A model generated the notes under the pieces. It made no database searches and was not told the origin of the DNA. It saw only the letters and a list, made by a program, of their open reading frames with translations. DNA of 34,519 nt, taken from assembly GCA_001789045.1 (NCBI GenBank), contig MFYG01000009.1:1-34519 (forward strand), read 5' to 3'. The position numbers and the translations under genes are program-made. This document shows, in pieces, positions 23,679 to 33,261 of the stretch (positions are counted from its first letter, which is position 1; every line of letters begins with the position of its first letter). Source of the DNA: Candidatus Peribacteria bacterium RIFCSPLOWO2_12_FULL_55_15 (GTDB lineage Bacteria > Patescibacteriota > Gracilibacteria > Peribacterales > Peribacteraceae).

Positions 23679-25343
23679 ATGGTCTGGGCCGATCGCATCG
23701 TCGGGGAAATCAAGGAACGCTTTGCGAAGAAGATCGCAAAAGGGCAGCCGCTCGTGATCCGCGATGAGAAAACCCTTTCGGGGCGCGTCCATGTGGGAAG
23801 CCTGCGCGGGATCGTGATCCATGGACTCATCGCACAAGTTCTGAATGAGCAGGGAATTCCAAACATATTCCGCTTCGAGCTCAACGATTTTGACCCGATG
23901 GATGAGGCGCCGGAGAAGTACCTGCAACACATGGGGGAGCCACTGTGGAGGGTGCCGGATTACTCGCCCCTCACCCTAACCCTCTCCCGCGGGGAGAGGG
24001 GAGCTGGGGTTCATGAACCCCAGCTACGGGAACAAAATTACCCGATGCTTTGGGGCAAAGAGCTTCAGGAAGCTGTTGCCCCCCTCCACCTCCCCATCGA
24101 ATGGTACACGCTGCGTCCCCACTACGAACGAGGCGAGTTTAACGAAGTCATCCGCGATGCGCTGGACCACGCAGTAGAGATCCGCGCGATTTATCGAGAG
24201 GTTAGCGGCAGCGTGAAGCCCGACGACTGGTACCCATTGCAAGTTGTCTGCGAAAAGTGCGGGAAGATCGGGACGACGCAGGTGACACACTGGGACTCAA
24301 CGGCAGTGTGTCATGGTGAGCGGAGCCGAACCATGACGGGCATCGTCACCTACACCTGCAAGCCCGACCTCGTGAAGTGGGCGAAGGGATGTGGCCATTC
24401 TGGAAACATGAGCCCATTCGATGGCAATGCGAAACTTCCGTGGAAAGTCGAGTGGCCCGCGAAGTGGAAGGTGTTCGGCATCGACATCGAAGGGTGTGGC
24501 AAAGACCACTCCGCGGCGGGGGGATCGCGCGATATCGGACGGCGCATTGTCACGGAGATTTTCCATTACCCGGAACCCTTCAATATCCCCTACGAATTCT
24601 TCAACCTTGCCGGCAAAAAGATGAGCGCGAGCAAGGGCGTCGGCGCGTCGGCAAAAGAAGTGAGTGATTTGCTCCCGCCGGAGCTCATCAGGCTCCTCAT
24701 GATCCGCAAGCTTCCGAACCATCCTATTGATTTCAATCCGGACGGAGACACGATCCCTCTCCTTTTCGATGAATACGATCGCCTGGCGGACCATGCGTTC
24801 AAGCGCCATCCGAAGCCCGATCACGACTTCACGCGGACATTTCACATCGCCAATCCCGACTTCCCCAAAAAGCCGGAAGATCTGTGGCAGATGCGATTCT
24901 CGGTCCTCTCATTCGTCCTCCAAATGCCGCATCTGCGGCTCGAGGATGAGGCGGTAAAGCTCAAGGGTTCAGCCCTGACGGACGCAGAAAAATCCGCACT
25001 CCGCACGCGCGCGCGATACGTCGAAAAGTGGCTGCAGGAACATGCGCCGGAGGAGTATCGGTTCCGCATCGTCGAACAGCCGCCCCCTCTCGCACTTGAT
25101 GACACGCAGCGCAGCGCCATTGCAAAAGTCCTCTCCGCCCTCGAGCGCTGCCCGTGGGATGGGGCGAGCATCCACGAGGCGATCCACGCAGTGAAAGCGG
25201 AAACCGGCATCGAACCGAAAAAACTCTTCCAGCCCTTGTATCAGGCATTTCTCGGCCGCGACAACGGCCCGCAGATGGGGTGGTTTCTGTCCACGTTTGA
25301 GCGAGAGAAAGTCCTGCAACATCTCGCGACTCTTTGTGCGTAA
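23679..25343 (+). CDS. lysS: Lysyl-tRNA synthetase, class I (LysK)
   Basis: Charges tRNA-Lys. It is the class I (archaeal-type) enzyme, 554 residues: a HIGH-type motif in SGRVHVGSLRGIVIHGLIAQ, zinc-ribbon Cys (CEKCGKIG and YTCKPDL-GCGHSG), GIDIEGCGKDHSAAGGSRDI, and the KMSKS-type loop AGKKMSASKGVG. Two foreign repeats are inserted without breaking the frame. The first (23966-24025) encodes PLTLTLSRGERGAGVHEPQL after the RVPDYS segment; the second (24309-24338) encodes VCHGERSRTMT inside the zinc-ribbon region. Both should lie in surface loops if the enzyme works. Start ATG 23679 follows a -10-like TACAAT by seven bases. Confidence 0.93.
   Translation: MVWADRIVGEIKERFAKKIAKGQPLVIRDEKTLSGRVHVGSLRGIVIHGLIAQVLNEQGIPNIFRFELNDFDPMDEAPEKYLQHMGEPLWRVPDYSPLTLTLSRGERGAGVHEPQLREQNYPMLWGKELQEAVAPLHLPIEWYTLRPHYERGEFNEVIRDALDHAVEIRAIYREVSGSVKPDDWYPLQVVCEKCGKIGTTQVTHWDSTAVCHGERSRTMTGIVTYTCKPDLVKWAKGCGHSGNMSPFDGNAKLPWKVEWPAKWKVFGIDIEGCGKDHSAAGGSRDIGRRIVTEIFHYPEPFNIPYEFFNLAGKKMSASKGVGASAKEVSDLLPPELIRLLMIRKLPNHPIDFNPDGDTIPLLFDEYDRLADHAFKRHPKPDHDFTRTFHIANPDFPKKPEDLWQMRFSVLSFVLQMPHLRLEDEAVKLKGSALTDAEKSALRTRARYVEKWLQEHAPEEYRFRIVEQPPPLALDDTQRSAIAKVLSALERCPWDGASIHEAIHAVKAETGIEPKKLFQPLYQAFLGRDNGPQMGWFLSTFEREKVLQHLATLCA
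23966..24025. repeat. Two-hairpin repeat inserted in lysS
   Basis: After GCCCCTCACCCTAACC (23966-23981), the arms CCCTCTCC (23980-23987) and GGAGAGGG (23993-24000) form one hairpin and a perfect 24-base palindrome (24002-24025, centred on TTCATGAA) forms a second. The first 16 bases recur exactly at 33987-34002. Encoded peptide PLTLTLSRGERG is typical of dispersed bacterial repeats read in this frame. Confidence 0.75.
24309..24338. repeat. REP-like palindrome inserted in lysS
   Basis: GTCATGGT (24310-24317) and ACCATGAC (24330-24337) are perfect complements around GAGCGGAGCCGA. It matches the left half of the spacer repeat at 20940-21006 (TGTCATGGTGAGCG, then CGAACCAT). Length and phase keep the lysS frame open. 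Confidence 0.8.
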
Positions 25344-26030: not shown

Positions 26031-26221
26031 TCACTCCCGTTCCGTGCCCACACGTTCCGTGGTCACCCTCTGGAAATTCCGGAGCGCTGCGGCACCTGCT
26101 GCACCTTCGATAACCTTTAAGGCGACCTCTTTATTCTCGCGATGTGCTTGTTCGAGTTGATTAATGAAAGGCGTCGCAGGGGAGATTTGCTTATAGTCAC
26201 AAGCGCCACACGCATGTGGAC
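26031..26221 (-). pseudogene. 5'-truncated small gene at the head of the DUF5674 operon
   Basis: A minus-strand frame open from a stop at about 26222-26224 to TGA 26031-26033. It reads ACDYKQISPATPFINQLEQA, then HRENKEVALKVIEGAAGAAA and LRNFQRVTTERVGTERE, which looks like real helical protein, yet there is no ATG, GTG or TTG in its first part. It ends 13 bases before the DUF5674 start. It overlaps the 5' region of the large plus-strand glycosyltransferase frame, so its beginning was probably lost when that gene arrived, or a frameshift hides it. Family not recognised. Confidence 0.5.
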
Positions 26222-26237
26222 GCTATGCTACTCCACC

Positions 26238-29200
26238 ATGTACCGCTTCTTCGAGAGCATTATCCATCCGGCGCTCGCAATCATCCGTCCGCGCGTGATC
26301 GTCGAAATTGGCATTGATAAGGGATTCCATACAGAAAAACTTCTCCAGTACTGCAAAGAGGCCAACGTCGTCCTCCACGCCATTGACCCGGAACCACATT
26401 GCGATATTGAACAGATGCAACAGACCTACGGGAAACATTTTGCGTTCTATCGGGATTTCAGCCTCAATGCCCTCTATCGCATCGAAACGTACGACATGGT
26501 TCTCATTGATGGAGACCATAATTGGTACACCGTCTACCATGAGCTCCTTCTCATTGAGAAAAAAGCAAAAGAACAACAGCGCTTCCCTGTCGTTTTTCTC
26601 CACGATATCGGGTGGCCCTACGGGCGACGCGATCTCTACTATCACCCAGAAAACATCCCTGCAATGTACAGACATCCATACCAGAAAAAAGGTATTATTT
26701 TCGGAAAAGAAGGTCTCACAGAAGCTCAGGGATGGAACCCCGACTTCTCGAACGCCATCTACGAACACAACCTCCGTAACGGTGTGCTCACCGCCGTGGA
26801 GGATTTTATCGCACAGTCCAGAGAAACATTCCACTTCACCAAAATTCCTGGATTCCATAGCCTTGGGATCATCACCAATGCCATTCTTTTTTTACAAAAC
26901 AGCACATTCCAACATTTTCTCGACTCCCTCCACCTTAGTGGACCTCTCACACAGCATATCGATGCTCTCGAGCATGTGGAACTTAAACACATCACAGACG
27001 CTAGACAACAACAGAATGAAAAGAGACAACTGGAGACGGAACTCACGAGCGTGCGGGAGGGTCGGGACAAGCTGGAGACGGAACTCACGAGCGTGCGGGA
27101 GGGTCGGGACAAGCTGGAGACGGAACTCACGAGCGTGCGGGAGGGTCGGGACAAGCTGGAGACGGAACTCACGAGCGTGCGGGAGGGTCGGGATCGTCTC
27201 GCTATGGAACTTGCGACAAAAACTGTGGGAATAGAGCGCATAACTCGGACCCGCAGCTGGCGGTGGACGGGGGTCCTTCGCAAAGCGGAAGCGCAATGGC
27301 ACATGCTAGTCCATCGTTGCGTCTGTGATTATCCATTCCTTCACTTTACGCGAAAATGGCGGCTCCCAGGCTTTCCTCCACACCCCGTCGCTTCGACGCC
27401 ACCCATCTTTGTCTCACAACCGCGCCCAGTCGACATCATTATTCCAATCCATAATGCTTTTGAAGTAACGACGAGATGCATTGAGAGTGTTCTCGCATAC
27501 ACCACGGATGTGCCTCACCGACTTCTTCTGATCGATGACGCCAGCACCGATACCCGTATGCGCCCATATCTCGAAAACATCCAACATCATCATCCTTCCC
27601 GTGTTCGTATTTTTTTTCTTCCGGAGAACAGAGGATTCGTTCAAACGGTGAACTATGCACTCCCCCTCACTGCATCACACGACGTGGTTCTTCTGAATAG
27701 CGATACAGAGGTTTCTCCATACTGGCTTTCCGGTCTGGCAAAAATCTGCGGAGAAAAAGAGGATACAGCAACGGTAACTCCTCTCTCCAATAAAGCATCG
27801 ATCTATTCGATCATGGAGCCAGCATGGGCCGACGTCATGCTCCGGAAGCTCGATGTTGCTGAGATTGGCACAACCGTACGCAACCATTCCCTGCGGCTTT
27901 ACCCGGAAATCCCAACAGCCGTGGGTTTTTGCATGTATATGAAGCGCGAAGCTATTGACCGTGTCGGATTTTTTGATGAGGAGTTCGGCCATGGTTACGG
28001 TGAGGAAAATGACTGGTGCATGCGCGCGCGAGCGGCAGGATTTCGGCACTATCTCGACGATGCCACTTTTGTGTACCACAAAGGTCATGTTTCCATGCGA
28101 GCGGCTGGTCACTTACTTCCTCAAGAAGAGCATAGGAAAGACCATGAACTCATCCTTCAACGGAAACACCCCTCCTATCGCGCCACTGTTCACTCATTCT
28201 TGAAAAATGATCAGCATCTCCCCCGCATCCGCCAGCATCTCCACCATTTCCTTCTCGAAAAGGTTTCTGCCGATCGCAGAAGACTCGCTTTGCTTGTCCA
28301 TCGGCCCATTGACGGAAGCTGCATCGGAGGCACGGAGTTCAATGTTCGAGACCTGGTCGAAGAGCTCCAAAGCCACATCGATTGTTTCGTCGTTTTTCCA
28401 AAAGACAACGCCTTCGTGGTCAAGAGGCTCGTCGACACTTGTACCGTCTCGTACACTTTCCCCCTCCCTTCCCCCCTAGATCGGGAAGCTGCCCTAGCGA
28501 AAACCTTCGGTTCCATCCTCGATACCTTTTGCATTGAACTTTTCCACGTCCACCATGCCCTGGATACGTCTTTCCGACTTATCGGTGTCGCAAAAGAAAG
28601 AGGATTGCGCGTTCTCTACACCGTTCATGATTTTTACGCACTTTCTCCAAACTATCATTTAGTTCGCGAAGATGGCACATATCATGGTATACCGGACGAT
28701 GGTGAAACCTATGGCAGCTCGAATGAAGAGACACATGGAAATTGGCGGAAGCATGTACGTCATTATTTAGAACAGGTCGATGTCATTACGGCTCCTTCCA
28801 GCTCCTCTCTCACTCTTTTCGATAGTGTTTATGGAGATCTCCCTGCGACACGCCACGTTATAGAGCACGGCGATCCTTTCGCACCATCGTCCGCCCGTCA
28901 TTTCCCCTCGAAACATCGCGTCTGCTTCCTCGGGGCCGTCCACGAAATCCACAAAGGAAGGAACATTATTGTTTCTGCCGCCGAATACATCGCACAACAG
29001 GGAATCGACGTTGTTTTCTTGGGATGTCATTCTGATTTTTTTGCGCAGGCGCTCTCTCGCTGCAAAAACATTTCTTTCCTCGGCTTCTACGCTCGTGATG
29101 ATGTTCAAACCATCCTGCAGAATCAGCAAATCAGCCTGGTTTGCATACTCTCTATTCTCCAAGAAACCTTCAGTCATACCCTCTCGGAGAGTTGGCTCGC

Positions 29201-30152
29201 ACGCATCCCCGTCTATGTGACAAACGTCGGCGCCCTTGCGGAACGGGTCAGGGAAACACATGCTGGAAAAATCGCGCCCAGCTTTGATCCTATCTCAATC
29301 GCCAAAGATATCGTTGACTTTCTCCATTCACCGGACTACAGGAAGGTTTGGCAAAGAACGCAGGAGCTCAAACTGAAAACATCCGCAGAAATGGCAGAGA
29401 AGTATCTTCCGCTTTATGAGCATCTTTGGCCAAAAAAAGACGAACGCCATGATGCCAGGGGCTCCTATACTCTTCAAGAGCCAGCATCCATGCTGGCGCG
29501 AACAAAAGAACAGTGGCTCACAATCCTTCAAAATATCACGAAAGGCTACATGACAATAGGTGGCCACGCTTCCTTTTACGAGACAGGTCATATGATCATG
29601 AACCACATCAGGAAACTGGGAGCATGGAAAGAGGGAGACGCCATCGTCGACGTAGGGTGTGGCAATGGTCGCTGTGCCATACCTCTCACACAATTTTCAA
29701 TCAATTATGTAGGACTGGACGTCATCCCGGAATCCATCCATTTCTGCCGTAGCGCATTTGCACAGTGGCCAAACTTTCGATTTATTCATCTCCGAAGTAA
29801 TAATGCTCTGTATAATCCCGACGAAACGATGCCACCTACTCACGTCTGTTTTCCCATCGCCAGCGAGTCTGCCGATTTCGTCATTGCGATTTCGCTCTTT
29901 ACCCACTTTGAAACCGCCGAAGCTGTGGCAGCGTACCTCCACGAGATGCAGAGAATCCTTAAAAGAAAAGGGAAATTTTGGTGTACATGGTTCAGAGCTC
30001 CTCCCAACGATCCATGTGCATCCGCTCATCGGACGGTCTTTCCCGAGCATACTATCATGGAACTGATCAGACCATTCACCATCCTGCACACAGAATGGGG
30101 CTTGACAACTGGACACCATGATCAGTGGCAAATGCTCCTTCAAAAACAATGA
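26238..30152 (+). CDS. Giant fusion: methyltransferase, coiled coil, GT2, GT4, methyltransferase
   Basis: About 1304 residues, probably a cytoplasmic or membrane-side enzyme of surface-glycan synthesis. Residues 1-230: class I methyltransferase-like (RPRVIVEIGIDKGFHTEKLL, YDMVLIDGDHNWY). 265-320: coiled coil of four LETELTSVREGRDK units. About 395-640: GT2 glycosyltransferase (VDIIIPIHNAFEVTTRCIES, VVLLNSDTEVSPYWL, FGHGYGEENDWCMRARAAGF). About 680-1055: GT4-like glycosyltransferase (IGGTEFNVRDLV, VCFLGAVHEIHKGRNIIV, ETFSHTLSESWLARIPVYVT). About 1110-1304: second SAM methyltransferase (AIVDVGCGNGRCAIPL, FVIAISLFTHFE). The frame is open from ATG 26142; I prefer 26238 because upstream codons overlap the truncated gene on the other strand and lie outside the domain. 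It faces the Wzm/Wzt exporter. Base use looks less GC-rich than the ribosomal block. Confidence 0.85.
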   Translation: MYRFFESIIHPALAIIRPRVIVEIGIDKGFHTEKLLQYCKEANVVLHAIDPEPHCDIEQMQQTYGKHFAFYRDFSLNALYRIETYDMVLIDGDHNWYTVYHELLLIEKKAKEQQRFPVVFLHDIGWPYGRRDLYYHPENIPAMYRHPYQKKGIIFGKEGLTEAQGWNPDFSNAIYEHNLRNGVLTAVEDFIAQSRETFHFTKIPGFHSLGIITNAILFLQNSTFQHFLDSLHLSGPLTQHIDALEHVELKHITDARQQQNEKRQLETELTSVREGRDKLETELTSVREGRDKLETELTSVREGRDKLETELTSVREGRDRLAMELATKTVGIERITRTRSWRWTGVLRKAEAQWHMLVHRCVCDYPFLHFTRKWRLPGFPPHPVASTPPIFVSQPRPVDIIIPIHNAFEVTTRCIESVLAYTTDVPHRLLLIDDASTDTRMRPYLENIQHHHPSRVRIFFLPENRGFVQTVNYALPLTASHDVVLLNSDTEVSPYWLSGLAKICGEKEDTATVTPLSNKASIYSIMEPAWADVMLRKLDVAEIGTTVRNHSLRLYPEIPTAVGFCMYMKREAIDRVGFFDEEFGHGYGEENDWCMRARAAGFRHYLDDATFVYHKGHVSMRAAGHLLPQEEHRKDHELILQRKHPSYRATVHSFLKNDQHLPRIRQHLHHFLLEKVSADRRRLALLVHRPIDGSCIGGTEFNVRDLVEELQSHIDCFVVFPKDNAFVVKRLVDTCTVSYTFPLPSPLDREAALAKTFGSILDTFCIELFHVHHALDTSFRLIGVAKERGLRVLYTVHDFYALSPNYHLVREDGTYHGIPDDGETYGSSNEETHGNWRKHVRHYLEQVDVITAPSSSSLTLFDSVYGDLPATRHVIEHGDPFAPSSARHFPSKHRVCFLGAVHEIHKGRNIIVSAAEYIAQQGIDVVFLGCHSDFFAQALSRCKNISFLGFYARDDVQTILQNQQISLVCILSILQETFSHTLSESWLARIPVYVTNVGALAERVRETHAGKIAPSFDPISIAKDIVDFLHSPDYRKVWQRTQELKLKTSAEMAEKYLPLYEHLWPKKDERHDARGSYTLQEPASMLARTKEQWLTILQNITKGYMTIGGHASFYETGHMIMNHIRKLGAWKEGDAIVDVGCGNGRCAIPLTQFSINYVGLDVIPESIHFCRSAFAQWPNFRFIHLRSNNALYNPDETMPPTHVCFPIASESADFVIAISLFTHFETAEAVAAYLHEMQRILKRKGKFWCTWFRAPPNDPCASAHRTVFPEHTIMELIRPFTILHTEWGLTTGHHDQWQMLLQKQ
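27030..27197 (+). repeat. Four 42-bp in-frame tandem repeats
   Basis: Four copies (27030, 27072, 27114, 27156) of a 42-base unit encoding LETELTSVREGRDK. The first three are identical; the fourth differs only at its end. Fourteen residues are two heptads, so each copy adds one even length of coiled coil. Near-identity at DNA level points to recent expansion and likely copy-number variation between strains. Confidence 0.95.
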
Positions 30153-30277: not shown

Positions 30278-30967
30278 TCAAGACTGCCCGACCATTTTCC
30301 CATCCTCAAGATAGAGAACACGATCGCAGAATTCTTCCAGATCCCTTTCATTATGAAGCACCAGTATGGCCGCCTTGCCACGCTGTTTCATGCCATGCAT
30401 ATATTCTTTACACTGTCTCTGAAAGTCGGCATCCCCCACAGCAAGCACCTCATCGAGAATATACACATCGGCATCCGTATGCGCCATTGCGGCAAAGGCC
30501 AATCGCTGGCGCATGCCGGTTGAATAGCACTTAATGGGAAGATGAATGTGCGACCGAACTCCGGCAAAATCAATAATACGATCCGTCATTCTCTTAATTT
30601 CGTGCGGCATCAGACCATGCAAAAGACCATGAAGGTTCAAATTTTCCGCTGCGAGGCGTTCCATATGAAACCCCACCCCTAACGTAAAAAAGCAGGACAA
30701 TTGCCCTCTCTGAACGACCTGTCCGGCATCCGGTTCCATAATCCCTCCCAAAATACGCAGTAGCGTCGTTTTGCCGCTCCCATTCGGCCCATATACTCCC
30801 ACCCATTCTCCAGGCATCACTGCCATCGAGACATCATTCAACGCATGAACATGAAATGTGTCTCTATGCCTGCGTCGCCGGATAACACGATCCTGAAAAA
30901 GATGCGTCGGGACCACCGGGTACGTGAAGGTTTTATGAATGCCATCACAGGAGAGAATAGGAGCCAT
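30278..30967 (-). CDS. wzt: ABC transporter ATPase, polysaccharide export type (Wzt-like)
   Basis: About 229 residues, powering export of a surface polysaccharide. Walker A is GPNGSGKTTLLR, the signature YSTGMRQRLAFA and Walker B VYILDEVLAVGD. The N-terminus with FHVHALNDVSMAVMPGEWVG and the length suit the Wzt/TagH group without a C-terminal carbohydrate-binding domain. I chose ATG 30967, four bases after the permease stop; the frame runs to 30988. No terminator is evident in the 125 bases between this gene and the convergent glycosyltransferase gene. Confidence 0.88.
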   Translation of the reverse strand: MAPILSCDGIHKTFTYPVVPTHLFQDRVIRRRRHRDTFHVHALNDVSMAVMPGEWVGVYGPNGSGKTTLLRILGGIMEPDAGQVVQRGQLSCFFTLGVGFHMERLAAENLNLHGLLHGLMPHEIKRMTDRIIDFAGVRSHIHLPIKCYSTGMRQRLAFAAMAHTDADVYILDEVLAVGDADFQRQCKEYMHGMKQRGKAAILVLHNERDLEEFCDRVLYLEDGKMVGQS

Positions 30968-30971
30968 AAGA

Positions 30972-31811
30972 CTAATATTCTTGCACAAACGACCTGCTTC
31001 GTTTACGGAAAACCAACAATCCGATCCAGAATACCAGCAGGCAGATCGCTGTTAATACGACGCTATGCACGAGTGATGGCATACCTCCGCCATCAGGCAA
31101 TAAAACTCTCCGTGTATCGAAAATAATGAGAGATAATGGCTGAAAACGCGTAAAAAATGTGAGCATCTCCCATCCAATAATTTGTTGCGGTGAAGATATC
31201 ATTTGTAAAAACTCCACCGTTGCGGGCGCATGGACAGCATGGACATACGTAATCGGTGTGAGCCAAAAAAACACCTGTAACAGAATCCCCCACAAATGGG
31301 GGAAATCCCGAAATCGCAACGCGTACGATGCAAGCAGTGATCCAATACCCAACGAAAAAAGCGTAAATTGTAAAAAAGGAACAGGGAAATACAATGCATT
31401 CCATGAAGGAGCGGCCCCCATCATCACGCTCATGACAAAAAAGATCGCCACATGGGTGCAAAAAATAATCGTCTGTATCCACCCGACGGTGAATACGAGT
31501 AAAAATCGCGGAAATGCGACATTTTTAATGATATCGGCATACGTCAGTGGTATCCCGATGCACGCCATCGTCACATTGGCAAAATACTCCCACAGAATAA
31601 TGCCCAAAAATAAATACAGCGAATAGAACGGAATATCCACCACAAACAGCACGCGGAATACATAAAAAAAGATCACAAATTTACAAAACGGCACCGCGAA
31701 CGACCAAAAGTATCCGAGCACTGATCCGCGATATTTTAACTGGAAATCCGCCCACCCCAGATCCCACACGATCCGAACCATGTGCCTTGTGGTGAAGCGG
31801 CGACTCGACAT
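30972..31811 (-). CDS. wzm: ABC-2 type permease, polysaccharide export (Wzm-like)
   Basis: 279 residues with about six hydrophobic helices, the membrane part of the exporter. The start DLGWADFQLKYRGSVLGYFW is the usual ABC-2 entry segment (KxRYKxSxLGxxW), followed by LFLGIILWEYFANVTMACIG and FRDFPHLWGILLQVFFWLTP with the typical PITY motif. Base composition is AT-richer than the ribosomal genes. Its leader is the heptamer repeat at 31830-31857, and the gene lies after the metallo-beta-lactamase gene on the same strand. Confidence 0.87.
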   Translation of the reverse strand: MSSRRFTTRHMVRIVWDLGWADFQLKYRGSVLGYFWSFAVPFCKFVIFFYVFRVLFVVDIPFYSLYLFLGIILWEYFANVTMACIGIPLTYADIIKNVAFPRFLLVFTVGWIQTIIFCTHVAIFFVMSVMMGAAPSWNALYFPVPFLQFTLFSLGIGSLLASYALRFRDFPHLWGILLQVFFWLTPITYVHAVHAPATVEFLQMISSPQQIIGWEMLTFFTRFQPLSLIIFDTRRVLLPDGGGMPSLVHSVVLTAICLLVFWIGLLVFRKRSRSFVQEY

Positions 31812-31829: not shown

Positions 31830-31857
31830 CCTACAAACTACATACTACCAACTACAC
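31830..31857 (-). repeat. Heptamer tandem repeat in the wzm leader
   Basis: On the minus strand: GTGTAGT, TGGTAGT, ATGTAGT, TTGTAGG. Four TAG triplets are seven bases apart; the first is the stop codon of the upstream gene. Eighteen bases then lead to the wzm ATG. Confidence 0.75.
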
Positions 31858-33261
31858 CACAATCTCCTTATCTCGCTCCGGCATCAGCACCTCGATGCCA
31901 GGATTTGCCACGCGGATGCGCTCGGCGAACGGTTCCATCTGGTACTGTTCCCCATGGACGAGGATAAGTTTTTTGAGGCCGTCGATTTGTTCCACGTAGG
32001 GATCGAGGTCATTCATATCTGCATGTCCGGAGTAGGCGTTGATATAGAGACATTCCGCGCGCTTGCGGAGCATTTTATTGAAAATCCGCACCTCTGTGAC
32101 ATTTTTCTCGATGATCTGCCGTCCGAGCGTTCCCTCCGCCATATAGCCCACCGCAAGGACGGTATTCTTCGGGTCCTCGATGCCATTGAAGAGGTGATGC
32201 CGGATGCGTCCGGCTTCGCACATGCCGGACCCTGCCATAATCACCATCGGCCCCGGCTTCCCGTTGAGTTCCTTGCTCTCCTCCGTGCTCTCGGTGTATC
32301 GAACGAGCGAAAATTGGAACGGCTGGTGGGCGCGCTTGAGGAATTTTTCATAGATTTCTTTGTCATAGCACTCCGGGTGCTTCATGAAGACCTCGGTCAC
32401 TTTCGACGCGAGCGGGGAATCGACGATGATGGGAATCGCTGGAATCTCCTTCGCATCCCAGAGAAGATGGAGGTCGTAGATGATTTCCTGCGTCCGCTCT
32501 AGGGAGAATGCGGGAATGAAGAGCTTCCCGCCGCGCTTCGCCGTACGCAGGAGCACTTCCTTCAGTTTGTCCTTCGCCGTGCGGATGTCCTCATGCCGGC
32601 GATTGCCGTACGTGCTCTCGCAGATGAGAACCTCAACCGGTTCCATCGGTTCCGGATCACGGATGATGGGGAGTGTGTTGCGACCAAGATCACCGGAGAA
32701 GCCGAGACGAAAAGGCATGGTGTCACCCCTCTCTTCCTGTATCTCTATTACTACCATTGCGGCACCTATGATGTGTCCCGCATCGAGGAACTTCGCACGG
32801 ACCCCTGGGACGACATCGAACCACTCCCTGTAGTTCTTCCCCTCGAAGAGTTCGCCGCAGGCAATCGCCTCCACCTGATTGTAGAGCGGACCATCGCAGG
32901 GAAGCATTTCCTCCGGCAGTTTCTTGCAGAAGTACTCCTCGTCTTTCTCCTGGATGTAGCCACTATCCGCGAGCATCACCTCCGCAAGATCTTTAGTCGC
33001 GTACGTGCAGTGGACCGGCCCACGGTAGCCACGCTTCCATAGGAGAGGAATGCGCCCCACATGATCCATGTGAGCATGGCTGAGAATCACGGCATCGATA
33101 TCTTTGGCTGGATCAAAAGAGAGGAATGCATTCTTTTCCACCGCCTCCTTCCGGTGCCCCTGGAAGAGGCCGCAATCGAGGAGAATGCATTTTCCGTTCA
33201 CCTGCAGTTCGTGGCAGCTGCCGGTAACCTCACGCGCCGCACCATGATGAATGATTTTCAT
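31852..33261 (-). CDS. Metallo-beta-lactamase/beta-CASP ribonuclease-like protein
   Basis: 469 residues, probably an RNA-processing nuclease. Metal-binding motifs: ILSHAHMDHVGRIPLL, then DAGHIIGAA and FSGDLGR. The beta-CASP part shows ICESTYGNRRHED, FIPAFSLERTQEII, VDSPLASKVTEVF, and the C-terminal AYSGHADMNDL and LVHGE motifs with the conserved His residues. This is the family of CPSF-like bacterial and archaeal enzymes, and all zinc ligands appear present. Its ATG overlaps the rluB stop by 4 bases. The stop codon starts the repeat that forms the wzm leader. Confidence 0.9.
   Translation of the reverse strand: MKIIHHGAAREVTGSCHELQVNGKCILLDCGLFQGHRKEAVEKNAFLSFDPAKDIDAVILSHAHMDHVGRIPLLWKRGYRGPVHCTYATKDLAEVMLADSGYIQEKDEEYFCKKLPEEMLPCDGPLYNQVEAIACGELFEGKNYREWFDVVPGVRAKFLDAGHIIGAAMVVIEIQEERGDTMPFRLGFSGDLGRNTLPIIRDPEPMEPVEVLICESTYGNRRHEDIRTAKDKLKEVLLRTAKRGGKLFIPAFSLERTQEIIYDLHLLWDAKEIPAIPIIVDSPLASKVTEVFMKHPECYDKEIYEKFLKRAHQPFQFSLVRYTESTEESKELNGKPGPMVIMAGSGMCEAGRIRHHLFNGIEDPKNTVLAVGYMAEGTLGRQIIEKNVTEVRIFNKMLRKRAECLYINAYSGHADMNDLDPYVEQIDGLKKLILVHGEQYQMEPFAERIRVANPGIEVLMPERDKEIVV

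Follow-up and report, generated by a model that had tools for sequence, protein, structure and literature searches.

Can one polypeptide beside an exporter hold everything needed to polymerise, decorate and cap a glycan and to set its length? The question is raised by a stretch of 34,519 nucleotides, called the window here (positions 1 to 34,519 of the forward strand of contig MFYG01000009.1), from Candidatus Peribacteria bacterium RIFCSPLOWO2_12_FULL_55_15, an uncultured, genome-reduced bacterium with a genome of 0.9 Mb. The window carries a gene at 26238-30152 (+) for a predicted single-chain glycan assembly protein of 1304 residues, in which a Methyltransf_24 domain, a coiled coil, a GT2 and a GT4 glycosyltransferase and a Methyltransf_11/25 domain follow one another. 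We consider it very likely that this giant protein serves glycan assembly linked to the neighbouring Wzm/Wzt exporter; that it is a complete one-protein factory whose N-terminal methyltransferase caps the chain from its position on the coil is a reading to which we give slightly better than even odds.

Four intact enzymatic domains in one frame

The open frame runs uninterrupted from 26142 to 30152 (+) and would yield 1336 residues from its first ATG; because relatives begin at the methionine at 26238 (MYRFF), we take the protein to be 1304 residues long. Matches above the curated Pfam cut-offs, with residues numbered from the 26142 start, place Methyltransf_24 at residues 54-156 (E 3.8e-12), GT2 at residues 432-608 (E 6e-17; nucleotides 27435-27965), the two halves of GT4 at residues 728-910 (E 4e-10) and 925-1072 (E 6e-11; together nucleotides 28323-29357), and Methyltransf_25/11 at residues 1168-1281 (E 1e-11; nucleotides 29643-29984), all on the forward strand. 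An earlier note, made from the sequence alone, had described two methyltransferases and two glycosyltransferases in a single polypeptide, and this holds, the four domains lying in one stop-free frame of 1304 codons. Its further claim that glycan genes which are normally separate are fused here beside a Wzm/Wzt exporter is likewise supported; wzt lies about 125 bp away.

The same note had named missing catalytic residues as the observation that would overturn it. We find the motif strings of the respective families intact in all four domains: VEIGIDKG, IDP, LIDGDH and LHD in the N-terminal methyltransferase; IDDAS, NSDTE and GEENDW in GT2; GGT, HD, HKGR and EX7E in GT4; and VDVGCGNGR and GLD in the C-terminal methyltransferase. 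We reject a pseudogene, or a chain with inactive domains, on the strength of these motifs. In an alignment with other GT2-GT4 pairs from Peribacteria, the GT2 motifs line up in each of the nine rows and the GT4 motifs are complete in seven, the remaining two (G206, G013) being ended early by the chosen range. A phmmer search with the whole chain returned a chondroitin synthase as its sole match, for the GT2 part.

Structures were predicted for the N-terminal 396 and the C-terminal 227 residues. For the former (26238-27425), AlphaFold2 with an alignment of 27 sequences gave a mean per-residue confidence (pLDDT) of 89.2 and a methyltransferase fold over residues 1-234 (26238-26939), the final 35 residues being of low confidence; D91, the aspartate of LIDGDH, is invariant across the 27 aligned modules. 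By structure matching, this domain resembles COMT-like cation-dependent O-methyltransferases, with a VIA-align Z of 15.7 to spCOMT (root-mean-square deviation 2.4 over 158 residues). The first-ranked Foldseek match is MeT1 of Mycobacterium hassiacum (E 6.7e-6, TM about 0.5 by target), a polysaccharide 1-O-methyltransferase that, in the sections cited, adds a methyl group to position 1 of methylmannose oligosaccharides (PMC9883506); the Foldseek rows rank close together and therefore do not settle the substrate. Predicted at a pLDDT of 80.8, the C-terminal domain has many matches among small-molecule class-I methyltransferases, none of which stands out. A profile covering the N-terminal methyltransferase and its coil, run against PDB sequences, found a single entry, 8qox_B (E 0.0098), aligned chiefly over the coil, and did not find WbdD, a result that is no evidence for a different fold.

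A long predicted helix with a 42-bp repeat

The N-terminal methyltransferase is followed by a predicted continuous helix of 102 residues (26940-27245; residues 235-336, at high pLDDT), which we propose as a spacer or ruler and which would span about 15 nm at 1.5 Å per residue, and then by a second helix at residues 339-362. Within the window coil, 0.89 of all hydrophobic residues fall in register, a value reached by none of 500 shuffles. The middle of the coil encodes LETELTSVREGRDK four times, in a tandem repeat at 27025-27193 (+) of 4.0 copies at 99% match, a copy number that is uncertain because near-identical repeats can be mis-assembled; this repeat was not listed in the earlier note. Three copies share the same DNA sequence; the first departs from it at 4 of 42 positions. 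Each 42-bp unit specifies 14 residues, or two heptads, so that gain or loss of whole units keeps the heptad register. Across 22 measured modules including that of the window (G286, which is truncated, G301 and G295 are left out of the measurement), the coil between methyltransferase and SWRxT motif varies from 38 to 192 residues. Tandem Repeats Finder detected long-unit arrays in three of these coils, every one with a unit of 42 bp: besides the window, G253 has 2.1 copies (93%) and G004 has 2.0 (85%), and the unit sequences are unrelated.

The coil is followed by an SWRxT motif and a short basic helix (27252-27323, +) that may act as a membrane or docking helix; the segment is basic in 21 of 21 cases. 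We dropped as weak the idea that it is a proven amphipathic membrane helix, its hydrophobic moment being not significant in the window.

Linkage to the exporter and modular make-up among relatives

The exporter pair is convergent to the giant gene and consists of an ATPase of Wzt type (30278-30988, -; 236 residues, ATPase domain only) and a permease of Wzm type (30972-31811, -). We searched 288 genomes of the class and 74 of the family, one per species, with a profile (A1) of the N-terminal methyltransferase and coil. At E <= 0.001 it finds 47 of the 288 genomes, and the strong matches are confined to the family of the window and G047. Of the 23 matching genomes outside the family, 22 score no better than E 7e-10 and count as weak; in G047, which lacks the coil, wzm and wzt lie about 3 kb from the strong match. 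Within the family the module is present in 28 of 74 genomes, 27 with E < 1e-30 plus G303, whose match of E 1.1e-8, split into pieces, improved to 4e-23 when scanned again; G008 (E 2.8e-6) and G014 (E 2.5e-4, a Methyltransf_24 fused to Wzt) were not counted.

Module and exporter travel together. Wzm occurs in 34 of the 74 family genomes, 26 of which also have the module, while eight have Wzm only, two the module only and 38 neither (Fisher p 1e-10); by genus, all 16 that carry the module have Wzm, against 3 of the 24 that lack it (p 1.5e-8), both p values being optimistic because the genomes are related. In all 26 pairs the two lie on one contig, 0.1-12.2 kb apart (median 3.3 kb), and in 13 of 28 genomes the frame with the module and that of wzt meet directly, tail to tail. 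As to the two genomes with the module only, in G213 it sits on a short contig that still carries wzt (L157), and in G260 an ABC_membrane plus ABC_tran exporter directly adjoins it. This last exporter, at L154:15762-17777 (+), is of PglK/MsbA type and replaces Wzm/Wzt beside the gene for methyltransferase and coil.

The module frame runs into recognised glycosyltransferase domains in 15 of the 28 genomes, is long but free of Pfam matches in three (G011, G131, G126), and forms a short separate protein in ten, one of them truncated; split versions of the domains, which the earlier note had suggested looking for, thus exist. Counterparts of the window's GT2-GT4 pair are joined to the module in G029 and G177; in G013, G206, G217, G243 and G303 a separate gene of the locus encodes the pair. 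A second methyltransferase follows GT4 in the separate GT2-GT4 protein of G217 (Methyltransf_24, E 7e-21), and the one in the window belongs to another family, Methyltransf_11/25; a relative of the latter (39% identity) is free-standing in the G206 locus. The exact five-part fusion was found in the window genome only. Among larger or divergent fusions, G239 encodes a relative of 2206 residues (L147:2682-9299, +) with methyltransferase, coil, three GT2 and two GT4-type stretches in one chain, and G030 has a Methyltransf_24-GT2-GT4 fusion of another, second kind whose coil is short (L107:7986-10844, +), around which no Wzm or Wzt match lies within the 20 kb taken.

Because of how module and glycosyltransferases are distributed in these relatives, we take the conserved, exporter-linked component to be the N-terminal enzyme and regard the C-terminal methyltransferase as an exchangeable decoration. 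The earlier note had treated the two methyltransferases together, as able with the glycosyltransferases to build and cap a methylated glycan. We refine this, the two being not equivalent: the N-terminal enzyme is the best candidate for the cap, and the C-terminal one, a rare add-on to the GT2-GT4 pair, is more likely a decorating enzyme.

Comparison with known systems

We found no paper in the open-licence literature describing such systems in Patescibacteria. As far as the cited sections go, WbbB of Klebsiella pneumoniae O12 resembles the giant protein in joining an N-terminal terminator, a coil and two C-terminal glycosyltransferases in one chain with a Wzm/Wzt transporter, but its terminator is a transferase of 3-deoxy-D-manno-oct-2-ulosonic acid (Kdo), its Wzt has a carbohydrate-binding module and a second methyltransferase does not feature (PMC11231755). 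ORF6 of K. pneumoniae O7 likewise has an N-terminal methyltransferase, a central coil, two C-terminal glycosyltransferases and Wzm/Wzt; unlike the window, it is described there with a kinase, a domain resembling a carbohydrate-binding module, two GT2 modules and an extra ribofuranosyltransferase, and with no C-terminal methyltransferase (PMC11231755). WsaE of Geobacillus stearothermophilus, similar in domain layout and gene neighbourhood, has an N-terminal methyltransferase and two glycosyltransferases beside wzm/wzt and methyl-caps an S-layer glycan chain, although the sections cited report no C-terminal methyltransferase and place a polymerising glycosyltransferase, WsaF, on a separate protein (PMC2943079, PMC3898925). 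In WbdD of Escherichia coli O9a, according to the parts cited, a methyltransferase is held about 20 nm from the membrane on a coiled-coil ruler; the split relatives resemble it in ending after the coil, whereas WbdD is a kinase-methyltransferase with a separate polymerase, WbdA, and a Wzt bearing a carbohydrate-binding module (PMC3482155, PMC5082667).

Set against the coiled-coil terminators (WbdD, WbbB, ORF6-O7), the giant protein shares the Wzm/Wzt linkage and the placement of a putative end-modifying enzyme at the coil end far from the glycosyltransferases, so that the ruler-like layout proposed in the earlier note, with the coil between N-terminal methyltransferase and glycosyltransferases, agrees with known ruler proteins. 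It also has what characterises WsaE, a methyltransferase and two glycosyltransferase domains in one chain beside wzm/wzt. By analogy, its layout is one that would work like those of WbbB, ORF6-O7, WbdD and WsaE, with a fifth module added; for WbbB, ORF6-O7 and WsaE, which share the layout, function has been tested.

An exporter without a carbohydrate-binding module

By sequence, the window Wzt is closest to ATPase chains of polysaccharide-export-type ATP-binding cassette (ABC) transporters (6amx, E 3e-42), and its full-length homologues of 404 residues match over the ATPase part only; we take both to be Aquifex Wzt. In the loci of relatives with a clear match, the Wzt frame ends 5-47 residues past that match in 23 of 23 cases. 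Two exporters are extended by an enzyme-like C-terminal domain: the Wzt of G014 (L163:3679-5313, +) carries a complete Methyltransf_24 (Pfam E 1e-12) at the usual position of the carbohydrate-binding module, and that of G301 (L168:3888-5543, -) a domain resembling sulfotransferases (Sulfotransfer_2, E 3.2e-4, narrowly missing the cut-off) whose HVPKTGG is presumably the sulfotransferase motif. These fusions tie glycan modification to export. Another sulfotransferase-like gene adjoins the G301 fusion. No further Wzt-Methyltransf_24 fusion was confirmed in the 288 genomes (domain match in 16; the longer frames of G017 and G228 left out). The systems described here thus pair a terminator-like protein with an exporter that has no such module, and two of them carry a modifying enzyme in the module's place.

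Proposed mechanism and its alternatives

Domains, intact motifs, helix prediction, exporter linkage and exchangeable glycosyltransferase modules are read from sequence; the nature of the sugars, the choice of the capping methyltransferase, polymerisation, the role of the coil as ruler and the carrier are inferred. In the mechanism we favour, the GT2-GT4 pair would polymerise a lipid-linked glycan at the membrane while the C-terminal methyltransferase methylates sugars of the repeat unit as the chain grows; the N-terminal Methyltransf_24, about 15 nm away on the coil, would methylate the non-reducing end of a chain long enough to reach it, and this methylation would stop growth, after which Wzm/Wzt would export it, the destination probably being an S-layer or another carrier at the surface. 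That the N-terminal enzyme acts as cap and the coil as ruler is somewhat more probable than the contrary. More tentatively, and to our minds rather improbably, the 42-bp repeat could be a slippage-prone ruler (about 2 nm per unit) that retunes chain length, with the neighbourhood or fusion of enzyme and exporter replacing the sugar reader of Wzt; repeat number could then alter chain length without breaking the coil register in this family of Patescibacteria.

Several observations weigh against a cap read off a ruler. The coil is absent in 3 of 28 modules (G177, G213, G243); hydrophobic residues gather on one register above shuffles (p < 0.05) in only 12 of 22 coils; the hydrophobic moment of the SWRxT segment is significant in 2 of 21, the window not among them; and the giant protein, unlike WbdD and ORF6-O7, lacks a kinase domain. 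The cap-reading module expected of a coiled-coil terminator system is missing: the window Wzt has no Wzt_C carbohydrate-binding module, and PF14524 (Wzt_C) is matched in only 1 of 74 family genomes, G026, which has no Wzm match (positive controls: matches in 2 of 14 genomes). The idea that the exporter reads the cap is accordingly not supported, no Wzt here carrying such a module. A Wzt-attached module is stated, in the sections cited, for all examples of terminated O-polysaccharide systems (PMC11231755), and since Wzt here is without a reader module we do not place the giant protein in that class. The WsaE methyltransferase, as far as the cited sections report, was moreover independent of chain length in vitro (PMC2943079, PMC3898925).

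In an alternative, the factory is the same but the coil is only a tether, or a scaffold for oligomerisation or membrane attachment, with both methyltransferases just decorating and the coupling of synthesis to export setting length. We think this possible, though less than probable. The module-free Wzt in the loci examined, the three relatives without a coil and the fivefold variation in coil length all fit it, as does the precedent of K. pneumoniae O2a, where the sections cited describe a transporter without a carbohydrate-binding module and chain extension coupled to export (PMC11231755). Against a mere tether, the methyltransferase, where the coil is present, lies at the end away from the glycosyltransferases, and the coil-bearing methyltransferase also occurs as a protein of its own next to wzt, whereas the glycosyltransferases vary. 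It is unlikely that the substrates are small glycolipids or oligosaccharides to which GT2 and GT4 each add one sugar, without polymerisation, for the methyltransferases to modify: long polymers are the usual cargo of Wzm/Wzt exporters, even if processivity cannot be read from a glycosyltransferase sequence and one relative pairs the coil protein with an exporter of PglK/MsbA type. Exporters of that type can flip oligosaccharides. Two glycosyltransferases per chain would also suffice for a polymer of disaccharide repeats, as the cited sections describe for WbbB (PMC11231755). Finally, that separate genes were joined by assembly or gene prediction in a metagenome contig is very improbable; the exact five-part fusion is confined to one genome and its four near-identical repeats are prone to mis-assembly, but the frame stays stop-free over 1304 codons, G029 and G177 share the Methyltransf_24-GT2-GT4 fusion, and G217 has a fusion of GT2, GT4 and methyltransferase.

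On the reading as a capping, exporter-linked factory, the giant protein is a complete candidate for a single chain, next to its exporter, that polymerises, decorates and caps a glycan and controls its length. Its relatives, with coils of graded length, fused and split versions and swapped glycosyltransferase modules, form a natural series, and two questions thereby become testable: whether, in nature at large, chain length is set by the length of the coil, and how termination is coupled to export when Wzt has no carbohydrate-binding module.

Genome context

The genome encodes one sugar transferase (PF02397), a GDP-mannose 4,6-dehydratase and a UDP-glucose/GDP-mannose dehydrogenase, and has eight RmlD-type matches, six of them above the cut-off, and three to Wzy_C. 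In the sections cited, S-layer genes and the synthesis of rhamnose and perosamine are reported for Peribacteria (PMC4736985). A protein of 1457 residues with SLH and Big_5 domains is encoded on the same contig as the giant gene (L113:12500-16870, -) and is a candidate glycan carrier, without a direct link to the glycan locus.

Beyond wzm lie a gene for a beta-CASP RNase (31852-33261, -) and then one for a pseudouridine synthase of RluB/RluF type. The top model for the RNase is type VII CRISPR Cas14 (374.8 bits, cut-off 800), followed by aCPSF1; as it is kept beside wzm in many relatives (65-74% identity), it is probably an ordinary housekeeping RNase. Upstream of the giant gene is lysS and, further left, genes for ribosomal proteins, SecY and RpoA; the lysyl-tRNA synthetase (23679-25343, +) is of class I, the archaeal type, in a bacterial host.

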